Below are positions 4,000 to 19,924 of a stretch of DNA of 25,055 nucleotides, piece by piece. Origin of the DNA: Candidatus Nanohalarchaeota archaeon (lineage in GTDB: Archaea > Nanohalarchaeota > Nanosalinia > Nanosalinales > JAFCCC01); NCBI GenBank assembly GCA_017610385.1, contig JAFCCC010000009.1:1-25055 (forward strand), written 5' to 3'. The number at the start of each line of letters is the position of its first letter. The first letter of the stretch is position 1. Position numbers and translations under genes: made by a program. The notes under the pieces were generated by a model that worked only from the letters and a program-made list of their open reading frames with translations, searched no databases and was not told the origin of the DNA.

Positions 4000-4146
4000 T
4001 TCCTTAAAGGAATGTTACCTTTAATACGGAAAATTTATAACGGTTTCCTGATTCGTGAATCTTCATTTACGAGTGAGTTAAATCTATGATTTAACAAAAT
4101 AGGAAACTCTCTGAATTTTCACAATAATCAAACTTTCATAAGTTTG
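4000..4146 (+). repeat. Hairpin chain upstream of tRNA-Arg
   Basis: Successive short inverted repeats are present: TTCCT/AGGAA (4000-4012), GGAAA/TTTCC (4028-4048), GATTC/GAATC (4050-4061), GTTAAATC/GATTTAAC (4077-4095, loop TAT) and CAAACTT/AAGTTTG (4129-4146), the last touching tRNA base 1. The style matches the chain before the 23S. A possible TATA box (TTTATAA, 4034-4040) lies within the second hairpin loop. Nothing here codes for protein. Confidence 0.5.
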
Positions 4147-4175
4147 GGCCTGTAGCTCAGTTGGATAGAGCACCA

Positions 4176-4210
4176 ACTAGGAAAATAACCTAAATGTTTC
4201 TTAGGTGTAT
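4176..4210 (+). other. tRNA-Arg intron 1, non-canonical position 29/30
   Basis: This is a 35-nt intron. The BHB consists of central helix GCAC (4170-4173) with GTGT (4205-4208), 5' bulge CA^A (4174-4176) and 3' bulge AT^G (4209-4211). The intron-internal helix CTAGGAAA (4177-4184) pairs with TTTCTTAG (4197-4204). Cutting after the second bulge base gives exactly the ends needed to rebuild the anticodon stem. The outer helix is poor, so this is a relaxed BHB. Confidence 0.85.
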
Positions 4211-4218
4211 GCCTTCTA

Positions 4219-4259
4219 CCAGTTAGAAGAACTGATCCGAAAGGAAATGATTGGAAGAT
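4219..4259 (+). other. tRNA-Arg intron 2, canonical position 37/38
   Basis: This is a 41-nt intron. The BHB consists of central helix CTTC (4213-4216) with GAAG (4254-4257), 5' bulge TA^C (4217-4219), 3' bulge AT^A (4258-4260) and inner helix CAGT (4220-4223) with ATTG (4250-4253). The outer helix is the anticodon stem itself, which is continuous only once intron 1 is gone. This suggests, but does not prove, an order of splicing. Confidence 0.88.
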
Positions 4260-4296
4260 AGCTGGGGGTCGAGGGTTCGAGCCCCTCCAGGTCCGA

Positions 4297-6134: not shown

Positions 6135-6148
6135 TCCGAGCGCTCGGA
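6135..6148. promoter_or_regulatory. 14-bp perfect palindrome TCCGAGCGCTCGGA, copy 1
   Basis: This GC-rich perfect palindrome sits in the AT-rich gap after argS, about 130 bp before the TATA box of the FIST gene. An identical copy lies at 13804-13817 upstream of a KaiC-like gene. It is a candidate operator shared by the two genes. It has no T-run and is unlikely to be a terminator. Confidence 0.5.
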
Positions 6149-6300: not shown

Positions 6301-7734
6301 ATGGTTAAAGAATGTGACATTATGGGTAAATATGTTCACGCGGGAGTGGGAATCTCCAAAGCTGATGACCCAGCTCAGGCCGGTAAAGAGGCCGTTGAGA
6401 TGGCTTTGGAAAAAATGAAAAAAGACGGCGGGAAAAAGCCGACCTTTGGAATCTTATTTTGTTCTGGCGGAAAATACGGAAAAAACCGAGAAACTCTTGA
6501 AGAACTAGTTTCTGGTGCTCATTCTATTTTTAAAGATGTGCCCTGGGTCGGATGCACTACTTGTGGAGAAATTAGTAATTTAGGGGTCATTGAGCATTCA
6601 TGTGTAGCGTCTGTAATATCTTCAGATTATCTGCAAGCCGGAATTGGCATAGGAACTAAGGTACATGAAAATCCCGAGAATGCGGGAGAATTAGCTGTTA
6701 AAGACGCAATTAAAAATCTTAAAAGGGAAAAAATGATTACTCCATATTTGCGTTATCTTGCGGAGAAGAAAAAATCTTCTGTTGAGCTAATGAAACAGTA
6801 TTCTTATTTTATGTTCTTGTTCTCTCCAGGACATACGTTTACTTTAAGCGGGATGGAAGACGCGGTACTGCAAGGAGCACATAGAGTAATAGGTCATAAT
6901 ATTCCTATCATTGGTGGTACTGCGGGTGATGATGCTAAAATGATTGGAAATTTTGAATTTGCTAATGGGGTGATATATAATGATGCTGCTATTGGCATGG
7001 CAATATCTGTTGGGTTGAAAGTAGGTTTTGCTTTCGGTCATGGATACATCCCAACCAATAAAACTTGTATTGTAACCAAATCTGAGGGATATATTGTTCA
7101 TGAACTAGATGGCAGACCTGCCGCGGAAGTTTATGCGGAGTTAATTGGAATCAAATTTGAAGAACTTTGGAGCCACAAAACCAATATGATGATGAAGCTG
7201 GTTCCTGTTGTTAAAGCAGCAGTAAAGTATTTCTCTGCAAAGATGGATTCTAAGATGATACCTTTTGCTTCGACAGCATATACGAATCCTTTTGGGATTA
7301 TAGATCTTCATGGCAATATTGCCGTAAGGGTACCTTTAAAAGTTGTGAAAGGTAAAAAACTGCTGTTTGCAGAGAAGATCCCAGAAAATATGGTATTGAA
7401 TAAACTTAAAATTGATCCAAAAAAAGTAATCAACGCAGAGAGTAATGCTATACAGGATGCACGAAAAGATGCGGGAGCTAAACCAAAGATTATTTTCATT
7501 TTTGATTGTTCTTTGCGCAGAATATTTGCATTGGGAGAGAAAAAACTAGATAGAATTATTAAATCTATAAATAAAAAATATCCTGATGCGCACATACTAG
7601 GTTTTGGGTCTATGGGAGAGTATACATTCAATCCTAAATCTGAACCGGTAGCTAATTCTGCTACAGTTTCTATAGGAATAATATCAGACGAACTGATAGC
7701 TGAAAAAGGCAAAACTCAAACGAAAGATTTATAA
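6301..7734 (+). CDS. FIST-domain (FIST_N/FIST_C) sensory protein
   Basis: The protein of 477 residues contains a FIST_N domain (about 15-270) and a FIST_C domain (about 280-460). This intracellular sensory module was first described in signal-transduction proteins and is thought to bind small ligands such as amino acids. Family-like features are GVGISKADDPAQAGKEA (about 15-31), FGILFCSGG (about 50-58), VGCTTCGEIS (83-92), GGTAGDDAKM, and the C-terminal IFDCSLRR and GFGSMGEY. No kinase, GGDEF or methyl-accepting domain is attached, so it would have to signal through a partner. No membrane segment is evident. The first ATG fits the TATA spacing; a second ATG at 6322 (MGKYVHAGVG) is an alternative. 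The LuxE-like gene follows 27 bp later with its own TATA box. The ligand is unknown. Confidence 0.8.
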   Translation: MVKECDIMGKYVHAGVGISKADDPAQAGKEAVEMALEKMKKDGGKKPTFGILFCSGGKYGKNRETLEELVSGAHSIFKDVPWVGCTTCGEISNLGVIEHSCVASVISSDYLQAGIGIGTKVHENPENAGELAVKDAIKNLKREKMITPYLRYLAEKKKSSVELMKQYSYFMFLFSPGHTFTLSGMEDAVLQGAHRVIGHNIPIIGGTAGDDAKMIGNFEFANGVIYNDAAIGMAISVGLKVGFAFGHGYIPTNKTCIVTKSEGYIVHELDGRPAAEVYAELIGIKFEELWSHKTNMMMKLVPVVKAAVKYFSAKMDSKMIPFASTAYTNPFGIIDLHGNIAVRVPLKVVKGKKLLFAEKIPENMVLNKLKIDPKKVINAESNAIQDARKDAGAKPKIIFIFDCSLRRIFALGEKKLDRIIKSINKKYPDAHILGFGSMGEYTFNPKSEPVANSATVSIGIISDELIAEKGKTQTKDL

Positions 7735-7761
7735 ATACTTTATAACTATTACAGAGTAGTG
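7728..7761 (+). promoter_or_regulatory. TATA box and leaderless start of the luxE-like gene
   Basis: TTTATAAATA (about 7729-7738) overlaps the FIST stop codon. It lies about 26 bp upstream of three successive possible start codons, GTG (7759), ATG (7762) and ATG (7765). The predicted transcription start falls on them, so the message is probably leaderless. Confidence 0.5.
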
Positions 7762-8958
7762 ATGATGACAGATATAAAATCCGTCTCGAAATCTCAAGAA
7801 GATTTAGATGTAGAGATTTCGAGGATTCTAGATGAACGGGGTGGCAATTTGGAGGAAGATAGATTTAATAGATTGGCCTTGGAGCTTTTTAGATCTCAAT
7901 TTGAAAGTAATAATATCTATAGGCGTTTTTGTTTAGAAGGAAATTTAACTCCAGAGAACGTAAGTGACTGGAGAAGTATTCCCGCGATTCCAACTGCAGC
8001 ATTTAAACATGCATCCGTATCCTGCTTTCCATCAGAAAAAGCGGTTAAATCATTTACTAGCAGTGGAACGTCAGATTCAGAAAGAAAGGGGACGTATTAT
8101 CTTGATGAACGTGGAGTAAAAATATATGATAAAGCAGTTATTAGAGGCTATGAAGAATTTATGGTCCCAGATAGAAAAGTAATGCAAATTTTAGCATTAT
8201 CCCCCTCTCCTGAATTTCTTCCAAATATGTCAATGGCTAATGCGATACAGCTGTGGGTGAATTGCTATGGGAGAGAAAATAGTACATTCTTAATAGGAAA
8301 AGATGGATTAAATACAAAGGCATTTATTACTGCACTTAAACAAGCAGAAGAAACAGGAGATCCCGTTAGTATCATTGGAGCCACATTTGGTTTTGTACAT
8401 TTTCTTGATGCGTGTGCAGCAAGAGATATGAACTTCCAGTTGCCTGAGGGTAGCAGAACAATTGATGGTGGAGGGTATAAGGGAAGAAGTAGAGAAGTTC
8501 CGAAAACAGAATTCTTCTCGCAACTCTCAGAGACGTTAGGGATATCTAAGGATCACTGCATTAATCTGTTGGGAATGACGGAGCGAGCATCACAATTTTA
8601 TGATAATGTTTTAAGAAACGCCTACTTCGGAATAGAAGAACCTAGATACAAGCCAGATAGTCCATGGACTAGAACGGTTGTAGTGGATCCAGAAGATTTT
8701 AATAGGATTCTAGAACCTGATAGTCCTATGGAAGGATGGCCAGGTTGCTTCAAGAGTGAAACGGGGCTACTAAGACATTATGATTTAGCAAATGTAAGTA
8801 CTGTTTTAGGTGTACAAACAGACGATATAGGATATAGTATTAAGACTGCCTATGGAACTGGGTTTGAGATTTTAGGTAGAGCAAATGGTGCCGAAGCCAG
8901 AGGATGCTCTTTAGCCATTGAAGAACTTATGGGTGAAGCTAAAAATGGCGGCAGTTAA
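7762..8958 (+). CDS. LuxE-family acyl-protein synthetase
   Basis: The protein of 398 residues resembles LuxE, the acyl-protein synthetase of the fatty-acid reductase complex. That enzyme activates a fatty acid with ATP and carries the acyl group on a cysteine before passing it to LuxC. The conserved RSIPAIPTAAFKH region (about 73-85) is followed by the phosphate-binding-like TSSGTS (99-104). Further family-like stretches are the GATFGFVHFLD region (about 208) and INLLGMTERASQFYDN (about 268-283). It is slightly longer than the Vibrio protein (about 370-380). Its end overlaps the LuxC-like gene by 14 bp, so the two are translationally coupled. No luxA, luxB or luxD is nearby, so bioluminescence is not implied. 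The substrate could be a fatty, branched or aryl acid. Confidence 0.85.
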   Translation: MMTDIKSVSKSQEDLDVEISRILDERGGNLEEDRFNRLALELFRSQFESNNIYRRFCLEGNLTPENVSDWRSIPAIPTAAFKHASVSCFPSEKAVKSFTSSGTSDSERKGTYYLDERGVKIYDKAVIRGYEEFMVPDRKVMQILALSPSPEFLPNMSMANAIQLWVNCYGRENSTFLIGKDGLNTKAFITALKQAEETGDPVSIIGATFGFVHFLDACAARDMNFQLPEGSRTIDGGGYKGRSREVPKTEFFSQLSETLGISKDHCINLLGMTERASQFYDNVLRNAYFGIEEPRYKPDSPWTRTVVVDPEDFNRILEPDSPMEGWPGCFKSETGLLRHYDLANVSTVLGVQTDDIGYSIKTAYGTGFEILGRANGAEARGCSLAIEELMGEAKNGGS

Positions 8959-10360
8959 TTTATATTCAGCAGTTTCTGTAGATACAACGGATTTATCTTT
9001 TGGAGAAAATGAGAATAAAGTAACTTTTTCGGTTCCAACGTTTACTCCTGAATCTTTGCAAAGTGCAATGACTGAAATTAAAACAAATAGAGCAAGATAC
9101 TTGCAAGACCGGCCTGTTTCTGAAATTGTTGAAGTCTTGGATCGGGTTAATAGAAAGTGGTTGGATCCCGAGTATAAGTTACGACAACAGGCGATAGAAC
9201 AGCTTCCTATTACTAGTGGATTCTCAGAAGAAATGATTGCTTTTACGCTAAACGGTATTGCAGGTATGTTTACAGAACAACAAATTTATAATATGATCAT
9301 AACAGATCTAGGAGATTCAAGAGTTTTAGATACATATATTGATAGAGAAGGCTTAGATGGGAAAATAAGAGCGTATGGTCCTGATATTATTACTAATATT
9401 TTTGCGGGGAATGTTCCTGCATTGCCGATAATCAGTTTAACACGGGGATTACTAGTTAAATCAGCGAACCTAGGAAAGGTAGCTTCTGGGGAGCCGCTCT
9501 TTGCACACCTATACCTAGAATCCATTGCAGAAGAGGATCCAGAATTAGCAAAAACAATTGCTTTGGGGTATTGGGTAGGAGGAGATGAAGAAATGGAACG
9601 ATTGGCATTTGATGTTCCAATTGTGGTAGCTTATGGTGGCCCTCAAGCAATTCAACAAATAAGTAAAAAAGTGGGGCCAGAAACTAGATTTGTTCCTTAT
9701 GGACACAAATTAGGTTTTGGAGTTATTGGAAAAGAAGGATTAACAGGGGAAGATTTATTAGGGTTATCACAACGTGCAGCCTTGGATGCTTCATTATATG
9801 ATCAGCAAGGGTGTTTGTCTCCCCATATATTTTATGTTGAAGCGGGTGGAGAAGTTTCACCTGAGCAATTTGCAGAGGAATTAGCCAAACAAATGAGTAA
9901 GTTGAGTGTAGATCTGCCACGAGGAAATTTATCTATAAAATCTAAGGCAAGTATCGCGTCTATAAGACAAAACTATGAAATGAAATCTCTTTTTGGGGGT
10001 GAAGTTAAAGTTTTCACGCCAGAAGAAGGGCTTGATTGGATGGTCATTTATGACGAGAATAACAAATTTGAGCCGTCTTGCACTTACAGGGTAATTAGAG
10101 TGAAACCAGTGAAGAGTGTAGATCAGGTATTTGAGCTAATGACTCCTTTTTCAGATTATTTGCAAACTGTTGGGGTTGAACTACCTGACGATCGCTTAGA
10201 CGCATTTGCACAAGAAATGGGCAAACTAGGTGCAACAAGAATAACGCCTATAGGTAGAATGGGAATGCCTTTAGCGCAAATCCCTCATGATGGCCATTTT
10301 GGTTTGTCTGATCTAGTTCGTTGGGCAGTTATAGAAAATGGATCATCTGCTAACTTTTAA
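8945..10360 (+). CDS. LuxC-family acyl-CoA reductase
   Basis: The protein of 471 residues is like LuxC, the NADPH-dependent reductase that takes an acyl group from LuxE or acyl-CoA to an aldehyde. It has the aldehyde dehydrogenase-like fold. Recognisable parts are the nucleotide-binding segment NIFAGNVPALP (about 148-158) with LVKSANLGKVASGEPLFA after it, and the catalytic cysteine in YDQQGCLSP (Cys290 here, close to Cys286 of the Vibrio enzyme). The ATG at 8945 is preferred over a TTG 27 bp upstream because GGTGA (8932-8936) precedes it at good spacing. It overlaps the LuxE-like gene by 14 bp. Together the pair should make an aldehyde from a carboxylic acid. Its use in this archaeon is unknown. 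Confidence 0.87.
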   Translation: MAAVNLYSAVSVDTTDLSFGENENKVTFSVPTFTPESLQSAMTEIKTNRARYLQDRPVSEIVEVLDRVNRKWLDPEYKLRQQAIEQLPITSGFSEEMIAFTLNGIAGMFTEQQIYNMIITDLGDSRVLDTYIDREGLDGKIRAYGPDIITNIFAGNVPALPIISLTRGLLVKSANLGKVASGEPLFAHLYLESIAEEDPELAKTIALGYWVGGDEEMERLAFDVPIVVAYGGPQAIQQISKKVGPETRFVPYGHKLGFGVIGKEGLTGEDLLGLSQRAALDASLYDQQGCLSPHIFYVEAGGEVSPEQFAEELAKQMSKLSVDLPRGNLSIKSKASIASIRQNYEMKSLFGGEVKVFTPEEGLDWMVIYDENNKFEPSCTYRVIRVKPVKSVDQVFELMTPFSDYLQTVGVELPDDRLDAFAQEMGKLGATRITPIGRMGMPLAQIPHDGHFGLSDLVRWAVIENGSSANF

Positions 10361-10456
10361 ATTCTCAGAGATAAAGATAATTAGAGTAAAATAAAAACAG
10401 AACACTACTTTGTAAATCTAATTGATCTGCCGGAGATATTGCCATTTACAATTTCG
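10361..10456 (+). pseudogene. 5' remnant duplicating the start of the gene at 12088
   Basis: Positions 10391-10456 match the first 22 codons of the intact gene (12088-12153). The start codon is changed from ATG to ATA. All other differences (GAT-CTG, CCG, ACA, ATT-TCG against GAT-TTG, CCA, ACT, ATC-TCA) are silent third- or first-position Leu changes. The bases just upstream (10361-10390) also resemble the intact gene's leader. After 10456 the match stops abruptly and a stop follows at 10493-10495. It is a broken copy that was once under protein-level selection. It begins directly after the LuxC stop codon. Confidence 0.8.
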
Positions 10457-10507
10457 AGGGTGGAGGGAGAATGGAACTCACCAGCAACATTCTAATTATT
10501 TTTTAAT

Positions 10508-11917
10508 TTATTTTTTAATCACTCTTTCCAAATCACTCAGATCAAAACAATAAACTTTTTTTCCTTCGAATTCATTAATTTTGCTTTTAAAACTCTTGGC
10601 AAAAACCGCATAGATTTCCTTTCTTTCTGTATTGTGCCACAGAACAAACTTTGTTTTGCTTGCCAAATCTCTAATAATTTTTTCAGCAGTTACATTTTCT
10701 TTCCATTTGCATTCTCCGAAGAGTATTTCGTTTTTGGATTCGTTTAAAGCCAGGAGATCTATTTCAGCAGTTTTTCTTTCATTATTTTCTCTATAGAATC
10801 CCCACCATTTGCCCCACTTAACATATTTCCTTGGCAAAAGAGAGGGTGCTAATTTCTTGCAGACTTGTTCAAATTTTCTGCCAACATATGCATTTGTATC
10901 TGCTTTTATTGATTCAATAACTTTTTGTTCGCGCCTTTTATAACCGGATATGTTCTTGTAGAAATATCTGAACCAGAAATTCATAAGAGGGTGTTTTATA
11001 TAAAATATTTTTTTATGATTTATCAGTGACTCTTCTACCCCAATTAGTTCAAAATAGTGTCTTAGTTCATTCATTTGTCTAGCTATAGCACTTTCTTTTT
11101 TACGGAGAAAAGACGCAATCTCGCTTATTTTTGTGTTTCCACAAGCAATTGCGGAAAGTATATCATAATAAACGCCGGAGCGCTTTCCAAACTCCAGTGC
11201 GAGAATTTCTTTAACTTCTTCTTCCAAAGTTGCCATTTCAGTAAAGAAGAATTTGTCCATTATTTTCATAAAATCATTTCCTTTCAAATTCTCATCCTCT
11301 AAACTTATGTAATATTTCGGAAACCCCCCAAAAATTGCATAAAGTTGAATAACTTCTTCTATATTTCTTATACCCAACTCCCCACACATTTCAAAAACAC
11401 TTTTAAAAGAAAGCTCTCTTAATAAAAACTTCCTCTTAATTCGACCATATAATGGTTCCTTTCCGCTAGAAAACAGTTTATTCATAAGACCAACTAAGGA
11501 TCCTGAAAAAATAAGCAGAAGTTCTTTCCTATTTTCATTGAGATCAATGTATTTTTGCAATATTCCATATACTGCTTTATCTAAAAAAGAAAAATTTTGA
11601 AACTCGTCAAAGGCCACCACCCCATGAAAACGCTTAAATAAAACTTTAAAGAAATCATCCCAAGTTTCTATCCTTTCCAGCTCTTTTAGAACCCCTTTTT
11701 CTTTTAATACGAGTTCATACTCTGCAAGAAGGCTTTCTGTTGATTTGTATTTATTTACAAAAAAATAAAGATTCTTTTCTTTGAGAAATTCTAGAATTAG
11801 GCGGGTCTTGCCTATTCTCCTTAACCCGGAAATAGAAACAGTAAAAAGTTTGCTGTGGGCTAGATCTTTTGCTTCTTTTAAGTAATTTAATTCTTCGGTC
11901 CGGTTTATAAATTTCAT
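10508..11917 (-). CDS. Archaeal AAA+ ATPase with DUF234-type nuclease-like C-terminus
   Basis: The protein of 469 residues belongs to the archaeal ATPase family (PF01637-like), often fused to DUF234, as here. Walker A is GLRRIGKT (31-38) and Walker B is VVAFDE (about 100-105) with FQNF after it. A winged-helix-like middle region (about 255-300) includes KISEIASFLRKKESAIARQM. The C-terminus has the pattern EIDLLAL then ILFGECKWK (about 375-400), which fits the acidic and Lys residues of a PD-(D/E)xK nuclease fold. These genes are common in archaeal genomes, vary between strains and are often linked to mobile or defence regions; the true role is unknown. It lies between a gene remnant and the intact copy of the same gene, which suggests it arrived by insertion or recombination. 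Confidence 0.8.
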   Translation of the reverse strand: MKFINRTEELNYLKEAKDLAHSKLFTVSISGLRRIGKTRLILEFLKEKNLYFFVNKYKSTESLLAEYELVLKEKGVLKELERIETWDDFFKVLFKRFHGVVAFDEFQNFSFLDKAVYGILQKYIDLNENRKELLLIFSGSLVGLMNKLFSSGKEPLYGRIKRKFLLRELSFKSVFEMCGELGIRNIEEVIQLYAIFGGFPKYYISLEDENLKGNDFMKIMDKFFFTEMATLEEEVKEILALEFGKRSGVYYDILSAIACGNTKISEIASFLRKKESAIARQMNELRHYFELIGVEESLINHKKIFYIKHPLMNFWFRYFYKNISGYKRREQKVIESIKADTNAYVGRKFEQVCKKLAPSLLPRKYVKWGKWWGFYRENNERKTAEIDLLALNESKNEILFGECKWKENVTAEKIIRDLASKTKFVLWHNTERKEIYAVFAKSFKSKINEFEGKKVYCFDLSDLERVIKK

Positions 11918-11922
11918 TTATA

Positions 11923-11960
11923 TTCACTTACTGAATAATTCACTAAATGAATATATAAAA
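11923..11960 (-). promoter_or_regulatory. ATPase promoter with two operator-like repeats
   Basis: On the minus strand a TATA box (TTTATATATTC, about 11950-11960) precedes the ATPase start. Between them lie two direct copies of an imperfect palindrome, TTCACTTACTGAA (11923-11935) and TTCACTAAATGAA (11939-11951), 16 bp apart. They sit over the predicted transcription start, a place suited to repression. The regulator is unknown. Confidence 0.5.
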
Positions 11961-12000
11961 CTTTCTACTGAGAATCTAGTTTTTAGGCATGAAGAATCAT

Positions 12001-12012
12001 GAGTATATACTC
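12001..12012. promoter_or_regulatory. Palindrome GAGTATATACTC upstream of the 12088 gene
   Basis: This 12-bp perfect palindrome lies about 75 bp upstream of the ATG. A TATA-like TTTATTATA (about 12031-12039) sits between it and the gene. A regulator site is possible; chance is not excluded in AT-rich DNA. Confidence 0.3.
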
Positions 12013-12087
12013 GTAGTTCAACTATCTAAAACTTTTATTATAACAAATCAGTTTTTAAATTCAGAAAACAAAATAATATCGTAAAAA

Positions 12088-12558
12088 ATGAAAACAGAAC
12101 ACTACTTTGTAAATCTAATTGATTTGCCAGAGATATTGCCATTTACTATCTCAGATATTGATGAAGAAAGACTTGAAGCTAATATTACTGTTCAGGAAAA
12201 AAGTAGTAAAAAACTATTTGAATTTGTGGATCATTTGGAACGTAAATTTGTTCCTATTCATTATATTGGCCAAGACAATATTGAAGGTAAATTTTATCAA
12301 AGATTTTTATTTTCTAGTAACGGCTTTTTAGAAATAATGCAAACGGCTCCAGCGGCGGTAATTGCACACTTTTCAGATAAGAAAGAGGCCCAAAAGTTCT
12401 CAAAAGCACTAAAAAACGCTGTTAAAAAATTTGCAATAGATCAAAGAGCTGCTAAATTCTTAATTAAGGATATTGAGGTTCAACAAGATAAAGAAGAAAA
12501 CTTGACCTATCAAACATGGACAAAACTCAAAAATATTCGTAAAGATGTGGAGTTATAA
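12088..12558 (+). CDS. Conserved protein of unknown function (intact copy)
   Basis: I do not recognise the family of this 156-residue protein. It is soluble, with no signal or membrane segment. The N-terminal half looks alpha/beta (HYFVNLIDLPEILPF, then LEANITVQEKSSKKLFEFV). The C-terminal half is helical and basic (KKEAQKFSKALKNAVKKFAIDQRAAKFLIKDIEV in segments from about 95-130). The V4R-domain gene starts 4 bp after its stop codon, so the two are surely one operon and probably act together. The first 22 codons exist as a broken second copy at 10391-10456 with only silent changes, which shows the protein was under selection in both lineages of the gene. A role as partner or input domain for the V4R protein is inference from position only. 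Confidence 0.75.
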   Translation: MKTEHYFVNLIDLPEILPFTISDIDEERLEANITVQEKSSKKLFEFVDHLERKFVPIHYIGQDNIEGKFYQRFLFSSNGFLEIMQTAPAAVIAHFSDKKEAQKFSKALKNAVKKFAIDQRAAKFLIKDIEVQQDKEENLTYQTWTKLKNIRKDVEL

Positions 12559-12562
12559 GAAA

Positions 12563-13063
12563 ATGCATTCACTAGCTAAAAAATTAATGATGGCTCGCAA
12601 ATTAAGTTTTGGGGCAGATGGAAAAGCAGAACTTTTAGATAATGATGTCTTTTTGATGTATGGTTCTATGTTACTTCAATTACAAGATAAAGCTGGCGAA
12701 AAAATTTCATATGAGATTGGAAAAGAAATGGGAACCAGTATGATTCAAGACATTCGAAAAATGGGTTTAAGTGGAACAAAAATGATTGATTTTATTATGG
12801 ATTTATTAACCATGAAAGGTTTGGGAGAGTTTACTATTGAAAAATTTGATTTGAAAACCAAAAAGGGGGAAGTTTGGGTTAAAAACGGGCTTCTTTTGAG
12901 AGAAGCAGAAAAGGTCAATAAAAAAACAGTTAAAAATACTTTCATAGAAGGATTACTATCGGGTGTCTTTTCTAAAAATTATGATCAAGACATAGCTTGC
13001 AAAGAAATTGCTCGTGTAATGGATAATTCTAAATTATGTAGGTTTATGTTAAAATTAAATTAA
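12563..13063 (+). CDS. V4R-domain protein
   Basis: The protein of 166 residues looks like a stand-alone V4R (vinyl-4-reductase-like) domain, a small-molecule-binding module linked to signalling and transcription control in archaea and bacteria. The pattern includes KISYEIGKEMGTSMI (about 48-62), a helix then GLGEFTIEKFDLKTKKGEVWVKN strands in the middle, and the closing FIEGLLSGVF with ACKEIARVMDNSKLCRFML, where the two cysteines match the usual C..C-R-F end of the domain. The ATG at 12563 is preferred over 12545 because GTGGAG (12547-12552) precedes it; 12545 lacks a ribosome site. It follows the unknown gene at 12088 by 4 bp. Its end overlaps the convergent KaiC-like gene by 4 bp. Confidence 0.7.
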   Translation: MHSLAKKLMMARKLSFGADGKAELLDNDVFLMYGSMLLQLQDKAGEKISYEIGKEMGTSMIQDIRKMGLSGTKMIDFIMDLLTMKGLGEFTIEKFDLKTKKGEVWVKNGLLLREAEKVNKKTVKNTFIEGLLSGVFSKNYDQDIACKEIARVMDNSKLCRFMLKLN

Positions 13064-13755
13064 CGTACTTTCATAAATTCTTCTTCAGTTTCAAACACTT
13101 TTATTCCCTTATTTGTTATATGCATTGGGAATGTTCCTTTCTTTTGATTTGTTCTTCTCATTTTTTTGATTTCAATATTCCTATACAGGCCACTTCCAAT
13201 AGATAAATAATACATAACAATTACTCCATCTGAAACGAATTCTTCTACACCAAATCGTGAAAGAGATCCTTTATCTTGCTCTGGAATTTCAGCGGTTAGC
13301 AATGCAGTGACGTGCGATCTTCTTAGGATTCTAATTAAAGAGTATAATCTTTCTCTTACTTTTGCATCAGTTGAACTATACATACCTAAAACACTAGTAG
13401 AATCAAGAACAATCCGGGATGCTTTCATATGGTCTACCATATCTTCGATTCTTGTCTCAAATCCGTGTCCTTCTAACGGGTTCATATACTGTATTGAGAG
13501 CTTTTTCTTTTTTTCATAACTCTCAAAATTCCATCCAAATTCTTTTGCGTCAGCTCTAATCTCTTCTGGTTCTTCTTCTAGAGTTAAATAAATACATTTC
13601 TCTCCGTTTTTAATCCCTTCTAAAATAAATTGACAACAGAAAATGGTTTTACCTGTACCTGCGCCACCAGTAACTAAGGTAACAGAACCTTTTGGTACCC
13701 CTCCGTTCAGTAAACCATCAAGTCCGGGAATACCTGTTTTTAATCTTTCAACCAT
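13060..13755 (-). CDS. KaiC-like RecA-superfamily ATPase (first)
   Basis: This is a single-domain KaiC-like ATPase of 231 residues. Motifs are the family opening KTGIPGLDGLLNGGVPKGS (about 6-24), Walker A GGAGTGKT (30-37), the catalytic glutamates in YLTLEEE (about 56-62) and Walker B RIVLDSTS (about 114-121). All catalytic parts are present, so it should bind and hydrolyse ATP. Such proteins have been proposed as signalling hubs in archaea, and here the convergent neighbour is a V4R sensor. The start has a TATA box (ATTTATACC on the minus strand, about 13780-13788), and the 14-bp palindrome lies just upstream of it. It differs from the two KaiC-like genes at 17266 and 18209, which sit with the pilus motor. 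Confidence 0.9.
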   Translation of the reverse strand: MVERLKTGIPGLDGLLNGGVPKGSVTLVTGGAGTGKTIFCCQFILEGIKNGEKCIYLTLEEEPEEIRADAKEFGWNFESYEKKKKLSIQYMNPLEGHGFETRIEDMVDHMKASRIVLDSTSVLGMYSSTDAKVRERLYSLIRILRRSHVTALLTAEIPEQDKGSLSRFGVEEFVSDGVIVMYYLSIGSGLYRNIEIKKMRRTNQKKGTFPMHITNKGIKVFETEEEFMKVR

Positions 13756-13803
13756 AGAAATGTATTATGTTTTTCGGTATAAATAATTGAGTATAACTAA
13801 AAC

Positions 13804-13817
13804 TCCGAGCGCTCGGA
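13804..13817. promoter_or_regulatory. 14-bp perfect palindrome TCCGAGCGCTCGGA, copy 2
   Basis: This is identical to 6135-6148. It lies about 17 bp upstream of the TATA box of the minus-strand KaiC-like gene, where activators commonly bind. The rest of the 13756-13931 gap holds that TATA box and a weak inverted repeat (AGTAAT/ATTACT, about 13855-13880). Confidence 0.55.
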
Positions 13818-13931
13818 TGCTGCAAAATTAAATTCAATTTGCATCATCATAAAAAGTAATGAAATTCTTGGAAAATTACTGAAAAAGTGACTATGTATGT
13901 AAAAATCTGCATTCAAAAGAGAATATAAACT

Positions 13932-14198
13932 TCATATATTTCCCAAAAGTTCTTGTAATGCGCGATATTTTTCAACTTCAACTGGCCAAGCAACTAAAGC
14001 TCGATCAATTTTTTTAACATTAATTTTATGTTCTCTAGCTAATTGATCAAAGTGGTATTTTACCTTGGCAATGGTGGATTTGTTTTCAGGGTCAGATTCT
14101 GGAAACATTTTTAGAATTCGAGCAACTTCAGAAACATGAGTTGGCCATTTAGCTATAATAACTTCATAAATTCTATCTCTTAAAACTTTTCCTTTCAT
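13932..14198 (-). CDS. Small winged-helix DNA-binding-like protein
   Basis: The protein is 88 residues long. Predicted order: helix (KVLRDRIYEVIIAKWP), helix-turn-helix-like segment (HVSEVARILKM, then STIAKVKYHFDQLAREHKI, about 40-60) and a strand pair INVKKIDRALVAWP (about 59-72) as the wing. This layout fits a single winged-helix domain, and the basic charge fits nucleic-acid binding. I do not know a named family. An A/T-rich CTTATTTATTCT (about 14220-14232) may be its TATA box. It lies downstream of the membrane-anchored protein gene on the same strand, 38 bp after that gene's stop. It could control that gene or the nearby KaiC gene; the target is unknown. Confidence 0.6.
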   Translation of the reverse strand: MKGKVLRDRIYEVIIAKWPTHVSEVARILKMFPESDPENKSTIAKVKYHFDQLAREHKINVKKIDRALVAWPVEVEKYRALQELLGNI

Positions 14199-14236
14199 AA
14201 ACTTTTTATAACATAGTAAGAATAAATAAGTTTGTT

Positions 14237-15586
14237 TTACTCAAATTTGCCAGAACGATCATGAGTGATAATGCCCCAATTAACTGTATCTGAGCGAGTA
14301 AGTCCTAAATTCTCTCGACCAATCCAGCTCCAATCTATATTGATACAGTACATTACGGGCTGATTCCATATGTAAATACTAATAAGATCTAGGCGATCAG
14401 GAACATGATAAAGATAGTGTGCGCGACCCTCATCTAAACTAAGCTGATACCTTGCACCCATTGGCAAATTTACAGTTTTTCTTTCACCGTTATAATCAAC
14501 TTCTAAAACAGCACCAGAGGTGTGAGTAAATGTAGCAGGTAGCTCATCCAGATTTAATTCATCAGAAAGCCATTCCTTATAAAATGGGAGCTCTCCTGAA
14601 ACAACACAGACAGAACCGAAAGTTGTTTCTTTTTTTCGTTCTAAAAATTTAATGTGATTAAGAGCGATTCGCTCGAGAGCGGCTACTTTTTTGTTGAGCG
14701 CCTTGAAAGATACAACAGGACCATATAATGAAGAATTCGTTGGATAAAGTGATTCGTACAGCTCTCGGAATTCTTTTGTTAACTTTTGAAAATAACCCAA
14801 AAGAGAAGGGGGTATTTCGACTTCTGCTTTAAGAGGGGTGGTTGTATATGGAACACCTAAAGAAGACAAAGTCCTTGCGTTATTTGCAACCAATCTTAAT
14901 CCATATAAATGAACTAGTAAGAATTCTTCTGCCTCATTTCTCCATATAGAATTCGTTACAACGGTAAGAGCGTTTAAAACGCCGTCATAAATGCCTAAAA
15001 TTGGCTTGGAGGAGTTTAAATCAACCCCCAAAACATTAAATTGATCTTTAAATCCGAAACTATATGGTACAAATAAAGATTGGGCCAATTGTACATCAAA
15101 AACTTCTTTATATTTATTTACCATTCTGACTGAAAAATTTAAAGCGTGTAATGCGCTTGAAAAATAATTTTCTAAAGAGATTGTTTTTTTGTCATAAAAG
15201 GGCTCACAGAGTTTTGATGCCAAAAGAGCTGCTTCTACTTGAAGTTCCAGGGGAAATTCATCAATTTCTTCGTTTGGGTCTCTGTCCCAGGCATTTCTTA
15301 ACTCTTGTATTTCAGTAGTACAGGTTGTATAATACTGTAACCAAGGATCATCATACGGAACCTTTTCGCTAGAATCTAAAATGTGTTCAATTAAAGATGG
15401 TTCTGACTTTGGATGTTCTTTTTCATCGCAAGAAGACAAAACCAAAGGCAAAAATAAAGCGGAGAAGATAATTAAACCGCTACTAAATCGCGAGAATAAT
15501 TTTTTTAAATCAAACCTGCTTTGTCGGACTTCTTCATAAATTGTCTGACCAATGTCTTTTGACTTCAGTACATCTTCATCTGACAT
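14237..15586 (-). CDS. Membrane-anchored, lipoprotein-like protein of unknown function
   Basis: The protein is 449 residues long. A hydrophilic N-terminal stretch of about 34 residues precedes a hydrophobic segment (SGLIIFSALFLPLVLSS, 36-52) that ends at Cys53 in LVLSSC. That resembles a lipobox, but the long N-terminal extension is unusual for a lipoprotein. No ATG nearer the hydrophobic segment exists. The rest (54-449) is presumably outside the cell and mixed helical, with conserved-looking pieces ALLASKLCEPFYD, NNARTLSSLG and a C-terminal beta-like part including EVDYNGERKTVNLPMG and VMYCINIDWSWIG. No known enzyme motif is recognised. It is divergent from the secretion ATPase gene with only 38 bp between their starts, so the two may be co-regulated. 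It could instead be a type II membrane protein. Confidence 0.65.
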   Translation of the reverse strand: MSDEDVLKSKDIGQTIYEEVRQSRFDLKKLFSRFSSGLIIFSALFLPLVLSSCDEKEHPKSEPSLIEHILDSSEKVPYDDPWLQYYTTCTTEIQELRNAWDRDPNEEIDEFPLELQVEAALLASKLCEPFYDKKTISLENYFSSALHALNFSVRMVNKYKEVFDVQLAQSLFVPYSFGFKDQFNVLGVDLNSSKPILGIYDGVLNALTVVTNSIWRNEAEEFLLVHLYGLRLVANNARTLSSLGVPYTTTPLKAEVEIPPSLLGYFQKLTKEFRELYESLYPTNSSLYGPVVSFKALNKKVAALERIALNHIKFLERKKETTFGSVCVVSGELPFYKEWLSDELNLDELPATFTHTSGAVLEVDYNGERKTVNLPMGARYQLSLDEGRAHYLYHVPDRLDLISIYIWNQPVMYCINIDWSWIGRENLGLTRSDTVNWGIITHDRSGKFE

Positions 15587-15624
15587 TAATACTTTTATTT
15601 AGGCTAAAGTTCAATATTAAATTA
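15587..15624. promoter_or_regulatory. Divergent promoter between the membrane protein and secretion ATPase genes
   Basis: Only 38 bp separate the two starts. A TATA-like CTTTTATTTA (about 15591-15600) suits the plus-strand ATPase, and TTTAATATT on the minus strand (about 15612-15620) suits the membrane protein. The two elements nearly overlap, so initiation in one direction may block the other. Confidence 0.4.
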
Positions 15625-17274
15625 ATGAATTTTTTAATCAGGAAGAAGAAAACTGAAAAAGAGAAAAAAATAAAGAAGAGTTTGCTTTATGGCCTATTAG
15701 ACGTTAGAATTAAAGAAAGGGAACCACATTTTGAAATTGAAACTAAAAAAGAAATTGTTGTTATTCCTACATTTGATAAATTACAGGAGATAGATATACG
15801 ATATAAGTTAATGGCGCCTTTTGCTAAAGCGCATATTAAGTGGAATTCTAAGAAAAAAGAGGTAATTTATACTGTAGAGGAACCAAAACTGACTCAAACT
15901 GAGAAAAAGATTTTTTTAAAAATACGAACTGGTCTAGAAGAAACATTGGAAACTTCTTTGAGTTCTTTGGAAACAAAAGAACAGATAATTGGTTATTTGG
16001 AAAACCGAATTTTGGCGATTCTAGAGGAGCTTGGACTAAAAGTAAATGAAAAAGAATACAAAAGAATAATGTATTATGTATACCGAGACTTTGTTGGTCT
16101 AAATGAAATAGAACCAATAATGAATGACCCATATATTGAAGATCTTGGCTGTTCAGGAGTTAATATTCCTCTTTTTGTTGTTCATTCTAAATTTGGCAGT
16201 ATCAAAACAAACATAAATTTTAAGGATGAGAACAAATTACGGGATCGTGTAGTTAAATTAGCTGAGCGTTGTGGAAAATATATTAGTTATGCGGAACCGC
16301 TTTTAGATGGTTCTTTACCAGACGGATCACGAGTAAATGCAACGTTTACAAGAGATATAACGTCAAATGGACCAACATTTTCAATAAGAAAATTTAATTC
16401 AATTCCTTTTTCAGCTATAGATCTTTTGGATCTTAAAACAGTTGATTTGGATATTTTGGTATATTTGTGGTTCGCAATGGAATACAGAAAATCTATGTTA
16501 ATTACTGGTGGAACTGCTACAGGGAAAACTTCTTTCTTGAATGTGGTTGTTTCTTTCATTCCTCCTGAAGATAAAATCGTTTCTATAGAAGACACTCGGG
16601 AATTAAAATTGCCTCATCAAAATTGGATTCCTTCTGTTGCAAGACCAAGTTACGGTTTTGAAGAACATGGAGAGATTACAATGTTTAAGTTATTAAAAGA
16701 AAGCTTTAGGCAAAATCCCGATTATGTAGTCGTAGGAGAGGTAAGAGGGACAGAAGCGTCTGTTTTATTCCAAGGAATGGCCAGCGGACACTGCTGTTTA
16801 GGAACTATACACGCATCGTCTCCTAATGCAGTTATTAAACGACTTATTACTCCTCCAATTAATTTATCTCCCGCACTAGTTGAAACTTTAGATATTATCG
16901 TAGTTATGACGCAGGCCAAAGAATTAGGAAAAAGTGCGAGAAGAATTGAATCAATTCATGAAATAGAAGCAGTTACATCGAATCAGAATGTAATAACTAA
17001 TCAGATTTTTTCGTGGACCCCAATAGATGATTCAATTGATTTTAAAGGAATAGAAAATAGCAGAATTTTGGACAAGATTAAGAAGCAGTACGGAATCGGT
17101 CAAAGTCAGCTAAAAAAAGAGATTAATATCCGAAAAGAAATTTTAAAGAAGATGAGAAAAGAAAATATTAGAAGTTTTGAGGATGTTTCTCAAATGATCT
17201 CTAATTATTATAAAGACAAGGCCAAAGTCCTGTCTGATTTGAAAATTAATAAAACAGAGCCGTATTCAGAGTAA
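15625..17274 (+). CDS. Type IV pilus/archaellum-type secretion ATPase (GspE/FlaI/TadA family)
   Basis: This 549-residue hexameric motor ATPase powers assembly of archaeal type IV pilus-like filaments or secretion. Walker A is GGTATGKT (295-302) and Walker B VVVGEVRG (368-375, Glu372). The His box is GTIHASS (393-399). The N-terminal domain (about 90-270) includes GLNEIEPIMNDPYIEDLGCSG and DGSRVNATF, typical of the archaeal branch. An additional C-terminal helical tail (about 450-549) is lysine rich. The ATG at 15625 is preferred over an ATG 84 bp upstream, which would lie inside the divergent gene. The 3' end overlaps the convergent KaiC-like gene by 9 bp. Its likely membrane partners are the two TadC/FlaJ-like proteins at 18941 and 19925. 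Confidence 0.92.
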   Translation: MNFLIRKKKTEKEKKIKKSLLYGLLDVRIKEREPHFEIETKKEIVVIPTFDKLQEIDIRYKLMAPFAKAHIKWNSKKKEVIYTVEEPKLTQTEKKIFLKIRTGLEETLETSLSSLETKEQIIGYLENRILAILEELGLKVNEKEYKRIMYYVYRDFVGLNEIEPIMNDPYIEDLGCSGVNIPLFVVHSKFGSIKTNINFKDENKLRDRVVKLAERCGKYISYAEPLLDGSLPDGSRVNATFTRDITSNGPTFSIRKFNSIPFSAIDLLDLKTVDLDILVYLWFAMEYRKSMLITGGTATGKTSFLNVVVSFIPPEDKIVSIEDTRELKLPHQNWIPSVARPSYGFEEHGEITMFKLLKESFRQNPDYVVVGEVRGTEASVLFQGMASGHCCLGTIHASSPNAVIKRLITPPINLSPALVETLDIIVVMTQAKELGKSARRIESIHEIEAVTSNQNVITNQIFSWTPIDDSIDFKGIENSRILDKIKKQYGIGQSQLKKEINIRKEILKKMRKENIRSFEDVSQMISNYYKDKAKVLSDLKINKTEPYSE

Positions 17275-17961
17275 ATCTATTCCTTCTCCAAAAATATCAA
17301 AGGGAATCCAGTCCAGAGGATGCTTTGTTTGTGACATCTTGATAATTTTTAAAAACCGCTTGCCGTCTTCCTCTTTTAATTTAATGCATCCGTCTGAAAC
17401 AAAATTTAGCATGTTAATTGTTTTTTTATCATGAACTCCCTCTTCTATAGTCATTACTAAGCAAGAATCCGATGCTTTGCTTTTAGCGCTGACTGTTTGC
17501 AAAAATCTGGCAACAGAATCCGCATCAGTATACAATATCATAGAAGAAATTGAATCTATAACAATTCTTTTTTTGACAGGTCCTAAGAAAACTAAGGCAT
17601 CAGATAAAGTTATATTCATTTGATTTAAATCAGTTAAACCAGTTACAGCGAACTTTGATTTTTCTTCATTTGTTCTCCAAGAATACGCATCTAAGAAAAT
17701 TAATCGTTTATTTTCATTTGCTTTAAAATTATGAGAAAATTCAATTGCCATTTCTTTTATTTCTCTAGGAGAATGATCTGTTGTAATGTATAAAACAGTT
17801 TCTTTTTCTTGAAGTCCTTTATCTACAAATTGATTAATAAAAATTGTTTTACACGTTCCTGGGGCACCAACTAACAAAATAGTTGAGTTTTTTGGAAATC
17901 CGCCCTGAAGTAATTTATCTAGTTTGTCGATTCCAGTTTTTATTCTCTTTATTTCCAGCAT
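17266..17961 (-). CDS. KaiC/FlaH-like protein with degenerate ATPase motifs (second)
   Basis: This 231-residue KaiC-like protein opens with KTGIDKLDKLLQGGFPKNS. Walker A reads GAPGTCKT (32-39): the glycine before Lys is Cys (codon TGT, one base from GGT). The catalytic glutamate pair of its relatives (EE) is replaced by TTDH (60-63). Walker B RIVIDSISS (132-140) is kept. It may bind ATP but should hydrolyse it poorly. FlaH of the archaellum is likewise a KaiC-like ATP-binding protein without clear hydrolysis, and it sits at the FlaI motor; this gene is next to the secretion ATPase, so a FlaH-like regulatory role is the best inference. It overlaps that gene tail to tail by 9 bp. Its start faces the repeat block at 17972-18139. 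Confidence 0.8.
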   Translation of the reverse strand: MLEIKRIKTGIDKLDKLLQGGFPKNSTILLVGAPGTCKTIFINQFVDKGLQEKETVLYITTDHSPREIKEMAIEFSHNFKANENKRLIFLDAYSWRTNEEKSKFAVTGLTDLNQMNITLSDALVFLGPVKKRIVIDSISSMILYTDADSVARFLQTVSAKSKASDSCLVMTIEEGVHDKKTINMLNFVSDGCIKLKEEDGKRFLKIIKMSQTKHPLDWIPFDIFGEGIDLL

Positions 17962-17971
17962 ATTTACCTCT

Positions 17972-18139
17972 TTATATTATAATCGATAATCTATGTTATA
18001 TTTTGCAGTAGGGTCTAGGTTAGATTGTGTGTTCTAATCTATATTATATTCTATATTCTAATTTACGTTATATTCTATATTATAGTCTGTATCATATTCT
18101 AAATTATGATCTGTACTTTGATTTATGTTATAATATATA
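17972..18139. repeat. Block of seven degenerate 24-bp tandem repeats
   Basis: Seven successive 24-bp units fill nearly all of the gap between the two divergent KaiC-like genes: 17972, 17996, 18020, 18044, 18068, 18092 and 18116 (unit starts). The best pair (18044 and 18068) share the opening TTATATTCTATATT. The common pattern is TTATATTCTA at the front and TCTGTA or TCTATA at the end. Outer units match a middle unit at roughly 15-16 of 24 positions. The array starts about 10 bp after the start codon of the minus gene and ends 69 bp before the plus gene. Confidence 0.6.
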
Positions 18140-18181
18140 GTAAAACTACCATATAACAAAAATAACATATTTATTTTTCCG

Positions 18182-18208
18182 TTTATAAAGTAAATAAGTT
18201 GAGATATA
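18182..18208 (+). promoter_or_regulatory. TATA box of the third KaiC-like gene
   Basis: TTTATAAAG (18182-18190) is about 24 bp from the ATG at 18209. This gives a leaderless or near-leaderless message, probably for the three-gene run to 21100. Confidence 0.5.
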
Positions 18209-18922
18209 ATGAAAAATATTCCCCGCGTTAAAACAGGAATAAAAGGATTAGATGAATTAATGGGTGGTGGAATACCAGAAAAAAGCACTATTTTACTTGC
18301 AGGTGGTGCTGGTTGTGGAAAAACAACATTTGCACTGGAATTTTTGTATAAAGGCGCTAAAGAATTTGGAGAGAATGGTCTTTTTATTTCTTTTGAGGAG
18401 AGTGTAACCGAATTAAAAAGAAACCTGCCATTTAACTGGGATTTAGATGCATTAATAGAAAACAAAAAACTGCTTATTGTTCGATATGACCCATATCAAT
18501 ATGAGGACATACTAGATTTAATTCGTTCAAATGTGAAAGAAACAAATGCAAAAAGAGTAGTAATTGACTCGATTACTGCTTTAAATTTGTATGTAGAAAA
18601 CGTGAAAGATGTGCGAAAATTAATTATGGATATTAATGAGCAACTAGGAAAGCTTGAATGTACTTCTTTATTCACTGGCGAGATTAAAAATGATGTACCA
18701 CAGCAGATTAGTAGGTTTGGTGTAGAAGAATTTATTGCAGACGGGATAATCTTACTTTTATTAAATCCGCGCGGTTCTGAATTAACCAATGCTATTTTAA
18801 TTAGAAAATTGAGGGGGGCTCTTCATGATAAAAAAATGCATCCTTTCAAAATCGGCGAAGATGGCATAATTGTGTATTCCAAAGAAGAAGCGTTATCAGA
18901 ATCAAAAGTACACTCATTTTAA
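18209..18922 (+). CDS. KaiC-like ATPase of the pilus cluster (third)
   Basis: The protein is 237 residues long. Motifs are KTGIKGLDELMGGGIPEKS (8-26), intact Walker A GGAGCGKT (32-39), catalytic glutamates FEES (61-64) and Walker B RVVIDSIT (about 115-122). It is therefore a complete ATPase, unlike its divergent neighbour at 17266. It is followed after 18 bp by the first TadC/FlaJ-like gene, giving the order KaiC-J-J. That order resembles flaH-flaI-flaJ of archaellum operons, except that the FlaI-type ATPase is upstream in a separate unit. It is a plausible energy or signal input to the pilus motor. It may form a heteromer with the degenerate KaiC copy, but that is speculation. Confidence 0.88.
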   Translation: MKNIPRVKTGIKGLDELMGGGIPEKSTILLAGGAGCGKTTFALEFLYKGAKEFGENGLFISFEESVTELKRNLPFNWDLDALIENKKLLIVRYDPYQYEDILDLIRSNVKETNAKRVVIDSITALNLYVENVKDVRKLIMDINEQLGKLECTSLFTGEIKNDVPQQISRFGVEEFIADGIILLLLNPRGSELTNAILIRKLRGALHDKKMHPFKIGEDGIIVYSKEEALSESKVHSF

Positions 18923-18940
18923 ATTAAAAACATAAACTTT

Positions 18941-19918
18941 ATGATTGAAAACTCCGAATTAGTCTTTATGATTAAAAAATCTCCTAAAAAGAAGACAAAT
19001 CCTTTTAAAAAATCAAAAAAGGAGAAATTTAAGATTTTTTGGGGAAGAAAAGGTTATGTGGGTTTATCAAATTCTTTATTTGGGGAGTTTGTGGATAAAC
19101 ATCCGAATCTATTTTCTTCATTAAAGCAGGATTTAATGAAGGGTAATTTTCATACGCTTTCAAGAACCTATTTTTGTGAATTATTATTGACGCCTCTGTT
19201 AGTATATTTGGTTTCTTTTTTGCTATTTTTAGTTATTTTCATACTTTCTAAACTACCAATTATGTTCAGAGGCGTTTTATTAATAATGGGACCCTTTGCT
19301 TTAGCATTGTTTAGTTTTACCATATTTTTCTTGTATCCATCAATAAGAGTTAAAGCAAGAAAAGCAAGCATAGAAACAAATCTTCCTTTTGCATTAAATC
19401 ATATGTCTGCGGTTACTGGGTCTGGTATACCTCCTTCTGCGTTATTTACACTTTTAACAAATTTTCAAGAATATGGCGAACTTTCTGCAGAAGCTAGTAG
19501 AATTTTAAAAAGAATTAAAATCTTTGGTGAGGACTTGGTAACTGCTTTGAAAACAGTTGCAAAAAAGACACCTTCTGAGGCGTTTATGGAAGTTCTATAT
19601 GGAATTATATCCACATTAGAGAGCGGTGGCTCTTTGAAAAAGTATTTACAAGAAAAATCTAAAACTGCACTTTTTGATTATAAAATTAGACGTAAAAAAC
19701 ATATTCAGAATTTATCAGTTTATGCGAGTGTTTATACTGCAATTTTGGTGGCTGCACCATTGTTTTTAATAGCAGTATTATCTGTTTTAAATTTGATGGG
19801 TGGAAATCTTCTTGGTTTTGAAATTGAAAAAATCATGTATGGTGGAGTTTATTTTTTAATTCCACTGATAAATCTAATATTTTTGATATTTTTATCAACA
19901 GTTCAAAAGGAGATGTAA
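18941..19918 (+). CDS. TadC/FlaJ-type pilus membrane protein (first)
   Basis: This 325-residue polytopic protein with a T2SSF (GspF/TadC/FlaJ) domain forms the membrane platform of type IV pilus-like machines. The basic N-terminus (KKSPKKK, KKSKKEK) is cytoplasmic. Two membrane helices occupy about 80-135 (LLVYLVSFLLFLVIFIL and LALFSFTIFFLYP). The T2SSF cytoplasmic part follows at about 140-245, with NLPFALNHMSAVTGSGIPPSALF and YGIISTLESGGSLKKYLQEK. Two further helices lie near 265-290 and 300-320. FlaJ normally holds more than one such region in one chain; here the second is a separate gene. It follows the KaiC-like gene by 18 bp and abuts the next gene. Confidence 0.87.
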   Translation: MIENSELVFMIKKSPKKKTNPFKKSKKEKFKIFWGRKGYVGLSNSLFGEFVDKHPNLFSSLKQDLMKGNFHTLSRTYFCELLLTPLLVYLVSFLLFLVIFILSKLPIMFRGVLLIMGPFALALFSFTIFFLYPSIRVKARKASIETNLPFALNHMSAVTGSGIPPSALFTLLTNFQEYGELSAEASRILKRIKIFGEDLVTALKTVAKKTPSEAFMEVLYGIISTLESGGSLKKYLQEKSKTALFDYKIRRKKHIQNLSVYASVYTAILVAAPLFLIAVLSVLNLMGGNLLGFEIEKIMYGGVYFLIPLINLIFLIFLSTVQKEM

Positions 19919-19924
19919 TTGATT

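Follow-up and report, generated by a model that had tools for sequence, protein, structure and literature searches.

Gene content of the island

The window, i.e., the whole stretch of 25,055 nucleotides that was analysed, carries between positions 6301 and 14198 an island of genes encoding a FIST protein, LuxE, LuxC, a protein termed X, a V4R protein, a KaiC-family ATPase and a winged helix-turn-helix (wHTH) protein. The features are as follows:

6135-6148, no strand: perfect 14-bp palindrome TCCGAGCGCTCGGA, a candidate operator, between ArgS and FIST
6301-7734, plus strand: FIST N and FIST C protein, 477 aa (PF08495, E=3e-40; PF10442, E=6e-20)
7759-8958, plus strand: LuxE-family acyl-protein synthetase, 399 aa (PF04443, E=1e-24)
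8918-10360, plus strand: LuxC-family acyl reductase, 480 aa (PF05893, E=1.5e-89), with an alternative ATG start at 8948
10394-10465, plus strand: leftover 5' fragment of gene X, corresponding to X residues 2-25 (E=4e-6)
10508-11917, minus strand: ATPase_2/DUF234 ATPase, which separates LuxC from X and is not in the island elsewhere
12088-12558, plus strand: X, of an undescribed family of ~150 aa that marks the island, with relatives 31-51% identical in other archaea
12545-13063, plus strand: V4R-family protein, 172 aa, overlapping X by 14 bp and 50% identical to the V4R protein of genome G003
13060-13755, minus strand: KaiC-family ATPase (PF06745, E=9e-66; 222 bits, above the gathering score), convergent with V4R
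13804-13817, no strand: second copy of TCCGAGCGCTCGGA, upstream of KaiC
13932-14198, minus strand: wHTH protein, 88 aa, a candidate regulator with homologues beside other islands

The initial annotation had described an overlapping LuxE-LuxC pair next to a FIST sensor, and this was confirmed by the Pfam matches. The reading frames of FIST, LuxE and LuxC are open, and the genes are complete and adjacent; both FIST domains score above the gathering score. LuxE and LuxC overlap by 41 bp if the TTG at 8918 serves as start and by 11 bp if the ATG at 8948 is used, which is where the LuxC profile match begins. The catalytic residues are intact: Cys299 of LuxC aligns with the catalytic cysteine position of the Photorhabdus-type enzyme, the SSGTS motif of LuxE occupies residues 101-105, and its C-terminal acyl-acceptor cysteine is Cys383. 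Both proteins match chains of the Photobacterium LuxC-LuxE complex structure (7xc6). Family membership and these residues support the proposed acid-to-aldehyde chemistry as a probable activity of the pair, and the stated lack of luciferase and LuxD was borne out for the window, as neither family was matched by the window ORFs scanned against Pfam. LuxE and LuxC each occur once in the genome (788 kb, 93.5% complete).

The 25-kb contig is archaeal, since an archaeal 23S rRNA and RNase P are located on it. Assembly of bacterial and archaeal DNA into one contig, which had been raised as a possible error, is unlikely, because the independent genome G003 shares the gene order across positions 6301-21100.

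Gene X matched neither Pfam nor PDB entries. A single-sequence AlphaFold model of X reached a pLDDT of 42 and was not usable; Foldseek with this model leaned to AdoMetDC folds (best E=0.014), a weak lead, and AdoMet_dc was absent from the Pfam scan results for the X members. In G003, X directly follows LuxC and the ATPase_2/DUF234 gene is missing. The remnant of the X 5' end, which matches the beginning of X with 84% identity over 102 nt, lies just after LuxC in the window and marks the ancestral LuxC-X junction; it shows that the ATPase gene is a later insertion between the two genes. The V4R protein of the window scored 12.7 bits against PF02830, compared to a gathering score of 31 bits, and its homologues reached 33.5 and 44 bits; the family profile matches MJ1460 (E=1e-10) and the phenol sensors MopR and PoxR. 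The wHTH protein is 62% identical to the HTH proteins beside the islands of G003 and G082 and 46% identical to that of G618.

The palindrome TCCGAGCGCTCGGA precedes both transcription units of the island, the FIST operon and KaiC, and these are its only two copies in the window. Sampling 264 kb of other contigs gave two further copies (L207, position 15789; L211, position 8402), amounting to four copies in 289 kb sampled of this genome with 32% G+C. The palindrome may thus serve a small regulon as operator or be a repeated element.

Distribution of the island and exchange of its enzymes

The main archaeal sample comprised 394 genomes, to which two phylum searches were added. A strong LuxC match was found in five of the 394 genomes (G000, G003, G082, G238 and G156), and FIST adjoins LuxE-LuxC in all five, yet FIST occurs in only 64 of the 394 genomes overall. 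A scan of genome contigs with one LuxC as query returned no match. The link between the FIST sensor and the pair, which the initial annotation would have given up if the pair and FIST did not co-occur in other archaea, is thereby seen to recur in divergent archaea. The annotation's pair with its sensor is present as described, but X, V4R, KaiC and wHTH, with which it makes up a conserved island, had been missed.

X occurs in nine of the 394 genomes, a count that omits G162 (E=0.001), and all nine hold FIST in the same island. The two phylum searches added five further genomes, giving a total of 14; in 12 of these FIST lies inside the X island, and the contigs of the remaining two stop beside X. 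The genomes with X span at least four archaeal phyla. The window, G238 and G366 each stand for one of these, with G067 and G448 in the same phylum as G366; G082, G039 and G332, which were absent from the results of the two phylum searches, account for one phylum or more besides. X was found neither in the plasmids nor in the viral contigs searched. It was also not found in 31 bacterial genomes with the nearest LuxC relatives, a search run without an internal positive control, and FIST occurred at none of the 85 bacterial loci checked.

The layout varies between lineages. G003, from another family of the same order, has FIST-LuxE-LuxC-X-V4R followed by a convergent KaiC, with an HTH gene upstream. 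The order is X-V4R-FIST-LuxE-LuxC with an adjacent HTH gene in G082 and FIST-LuxE-LuxC-X in G515, and in G618 X-V4R lies opposite LuxC-LuxE-FIST, together with an HTH gene. In G238 the genes lie on two contigs, one with FIST-LuxE-LuxC-FIST-LuxE and the other with LuxC-X-V4R, and in G062 X-V4R-FIST was found with the enzymes absent from the piece seen. The convergent V4R-KaiC pair also occurs in G003, G067, G039, G448, G509 and G516, in the last two of which X and V4R lie beside the contig end, leaving any enzyme genes out of view; no KaiC was observed near the islands of G082, G062, G618 and G238. G156 has LuxE-LuxC and FIST and lacks X; this genome looks Asgard-like because of gelsolin and weak roadblock matches.

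In five of the X genomes, LuxE-LuxC is replaced by another ligase together with an aldehyde-dehydrogenase-type reductase. X, FIST, V4R and KaiC surround a ligase of ~400 aa and an ALDH-family reductase with a conserved PIGCN cysteine in G067, G366, G039 and G448. The island of G332 contains yet another ligase-reductase pair and, in addition, genes for a histidine kinase and for an LDH-like dehydrogenase to which a receiver domain is fused (loci L145 and L168). Because these five genomes hold a different ligase and reductase in the same frame, the sensory frame is conserved and the type of reaction kept, and the catalytic pair would be interchangeable between lineages. In the FIST tree, the FIST proteins of the ALDH version form a separate group (100/99), joined by one FIST outside any island seen; those of the LuxE-LuxC version cluster weakly (85/86), with the FIST of G156 apart.

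Ancestry of LuxE-LuxC and the nature of the substrate

The nearest sequences found for LuxE and LuxC of the window are bacterial, with 38-39% identity, compared to about 26% to the other archaeal copies (G003). In the trees, the window proteins are sister to the bacterial clade with support of 99/96 (LuxC) and 100/100 (LuxE). The other archaeal copies are placed elsewhere, several of them on long branches, and for LuxC the mutual placement of these long-branch rows is not resolvable in the tree; the pair of G003 groups with that of a haloarchaeal plasmid (Halostella). The X proteins of the window and of G003 form a group (92/93). The G+C content is about 38% in LuxE-LuxC, compared to 30% for the X-V4R region and 32% for the sampled part of the genome. 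Taken together, the enzyme trees, the X tree and the G+C content lead us to favour the view that the lineage of the window exchanged its catalytic pair while keeping an older frame. With respect to the bacterial transfer suggested initially, the sister position and the higher identity to bacterial copies speak for it, but the window proteins are not nested inside the bacterial clade, and the direction and date of a transfer are not shown.

The operon of the bacterial relatives (Bacillota, Pseudomonadota) encodes LuxE, LuxC, an ABC ATPase, a permease, a binding protein and an SDR. A TPP riboswitch, called at the Rfam gathering score, lies upstream of this operon in 12 of the 17 bacterial loci tested (L012, L013, L018, L029, L032, L058, L066, L067, L077, L009, L010 and L021), and some Neobacillus loci also hold a membrane protein which, going by its sequence, we read as ThiW-like. 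The riboswitches and the operon content suggest that the bacterial enzymes reduce an acid related to thiamine precursors and would thus work in the salvage of such precursors. TPP-riboswitch operons with LuxE-LuxC were not found described in the literature searched.

These relatives bring up nutrient salvage as an alternative for the archaeal island, in which the pair would reduce an imported vitamin or aromatic precursor acid so that the cell can assimilate it, and the sensors would only regulate its uptake and use. The sister relationship of both window enzymes to operons that probably perform such salvage under TPP control argues for it. However, no TPP riboswitch was found in the window, neither a transporter nor an SDR adjoins the pair in the window or in G003, and other lineages retain the frame with different enzymes. 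As no ThiD-family gene was found in the genome, the bacterial thiamine pathway itself is unlikely in this archaeon, and thiamine salvage in the organism of the window was disfavoured. We regard nutrient salvage in general as unlikely, with some real chance left to it.

According to the initial annotation, the pair is a fatty-acid reductase. On this reading, fatty aldehyde might be made from host-derived fatty acids for a lipid, for detoxification or as a signal. The family names and the conserved acyl-thioester residues agree with this, as does the ability of V4R homologues to hold palmitate. However, the window proteins scored 64 of 550 and 130 of 750 bits, respectively, against the NCBIfam LuxE and LuxC equivalogs (NF052244, NF052251), far below the cut-offs for the fatty-acid enzymes, and their nearest relatives are TPP-regulated. 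In addition, no ketoacyl synthase was found in the genome, and for this reason the acid is probably imported or not a fatty acid. The fatty-acid reading was therefore not supported, and we consider it distinctly improbable. The substrate is probably an acid that the cell takes up, small or aromatic, and not a long-chain fatty acid of its own synthesis.

A putative system of acid reduction and sensing

The explanation we prefer, with a confidence somewhat short of even, is that the island couples the reduction of an acid to an aldehyde with the sensing of one of the two. LuxE would adenylate a carboxylic acid and transfer the acyl group to Cys383, from where it would pass to Cys299 of LuxC and be reduced to the aldehyde with NAD(P)H; the families and residues are observed, and the activities are predicted from them. 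Proteins of the V4R family accommodate small ligands, hydrophobic or phenolic, in a cavity inside the protein. From what is known of their families, FIST and V4R would act as sensors; their ligand may be either the acid or the aldehyde, and X may be a partner of theirs. KaiC and the small wHTH protein could then relay this state to an output, possibly via the palindrome TCCGAGCGCTCGGA. The retained catalytic residues and the constant adjacency of FIST to archaeal LuxE-LuxC, set against its restricted overall occurrence, argue for this explanation. So do the matches to the 7xc6 complex, the presence of FIST in every X genome of the main sample, the exchange of the pair within one frame, the V4R profile matches, the histidine kinase and receiver domain of G332, and the absence of ThiD and ketoacyl synthase from the genome. 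Against it stand the frequent occurrence of KaiC, V4R and FIST in other archaeal settings, the presence of TCCGAGCGCTCGGA at two other sites, the four islands near which KaiC was not seen, and the piece of G062 on which no enzymes were seen.

LuxE might alternatively acylate V4R, X, FIST or another protein, from which LuxC would remove the acyl group. This use of the pair in protein modification would fit LuxE being an acyl-protein synthetase by family, and V4R/Bet3 proteins can carry acyl groups. It would also fit G003, in which LuxE lacks the acyl cysteine tail and a similar YRGGC stretch lies at the start of LuxC. However, the V4R cysteines are not fully conserved and some are missing from the window protein, and the LuxC cysteine is invariant in all copies, as a reductase would require; we hold modification of this kind to be very unlikely. 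The same tail is lacking in LuxE of G003 (L108, 1403-3918) and of the Halostella plasmid (L178, 3662-6140), and in both cases the LuxC encoded next to it has a YRGGC stretch at its start, which looks like a transfer of the tail from one protein to the other. Finally, both half-reactions are reversible in principle and the pair could oxidise an aldehyde to an acyl thioester with ATP formation in an energy-poor cell, but no sign of an aldehyde source was seen in the island and sensors and an HTH protein would be odd company, making this highly improbable.

Reductive sensing as preferred here resembles several known systems in part. The LuxC-LuxE(-LuxD) proteins of luminous bacteria are homologous enzymes with the same catalytic residues and adjacent genes, but the window LuxC is only about 24% identical and a sensory frame takes the place of the luciferase genes. 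The bacterial TPP-riboswitch operons hold the closest relatives of both enzymes, likewise with LuxE immediately upstream of LuxC, whereas their riboswitch, transporter and SDR are not part of the archaeal island. NosP and other FIST proteins serve as auxiliary sensors (PMC12570481). The window protein shares the FIST N and FIST C domains with NosP; however, it scored 100 bits against the NosP equivalog, with a cut-off of 450, and it is partnered by KaiC, V4R and X and not by a histidine kinase, no kinase being found among the window ORFs scanned. V4R domains are considered to have a role in signalling through the binding of hydrophobic ligands (PMC2253512), and ligands of the fold include phenols in PoxR and palmitate in TRAPPC3 (PMC10933270). 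At the profile level the window V4R is homologous to MopR, PoxR and TRAPP Bet3, but it is stand-alone, overlaps gene X and lacks fusion to a sigma-54 regulator. KaiC-family ATPases have been put forward as archaeal signalling hubs (as cited in PMC5847659). The island likewise has a PF06745 KaiC beside sensor genes, but no description of such a gene in the company of FIST, V4R, X and an acid reductase was found in the literature searched. LuxE-domain proteins of ammonia-oxidising archaea have been reported as DSF-type candidates (PMC11442133); a description of LuxE or LuxC with FIST or V4R in archaea was not found in the literature searched. Except for X, all components of the island are from known families; the gene combination and the exchange of the pair in a fixed sensory frame were not found described in the available literature.

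In a wider reading, which is tentative and on balance rather unlikely, the island would represent an undescribed form of archaeal signalling with an aldehyde, or an alcohol derived from it, as messenger, an exchangeable ligase-reductase pair, sensing by V4R, FIST and X, and a response by KaiC and wHTH that might extend to control of the adjacent pilus genes. Most of what is known of LuxE-LuxC comes from luminescence; here the pair is found within a sensor island of at least four archaeal phyla, mostly in small-genome lineages in which signalling is hardly known. The exchange of the pair in a fixed frame predicts that the sensors respond to what the resident pair consumes or produces. In bacteria, the LuxE-LuxC clade under TPP riboswitches provides a lead to the reduction of a thiamine-precursor acid.

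Some further features were observed around the island. It is adjoined by a TadA-KaiC-KaiC-TadC-TadC-type pilus block in the window (15541-21100) and in G003 (L108, 6539-13680), where the ATPase of the block (1139 aa) carries an intein-like insertion at the Walker A motif. A 449-aa protein without a Pfam match, encoded at 14237-15586 of the window, starts with a lipobox-like LVLSSC. At 4146-4295, a tRNA match missed by ARAGORN covers 150 bp compared to a model of 71 positions, and this tRNA probably carries a long intron.
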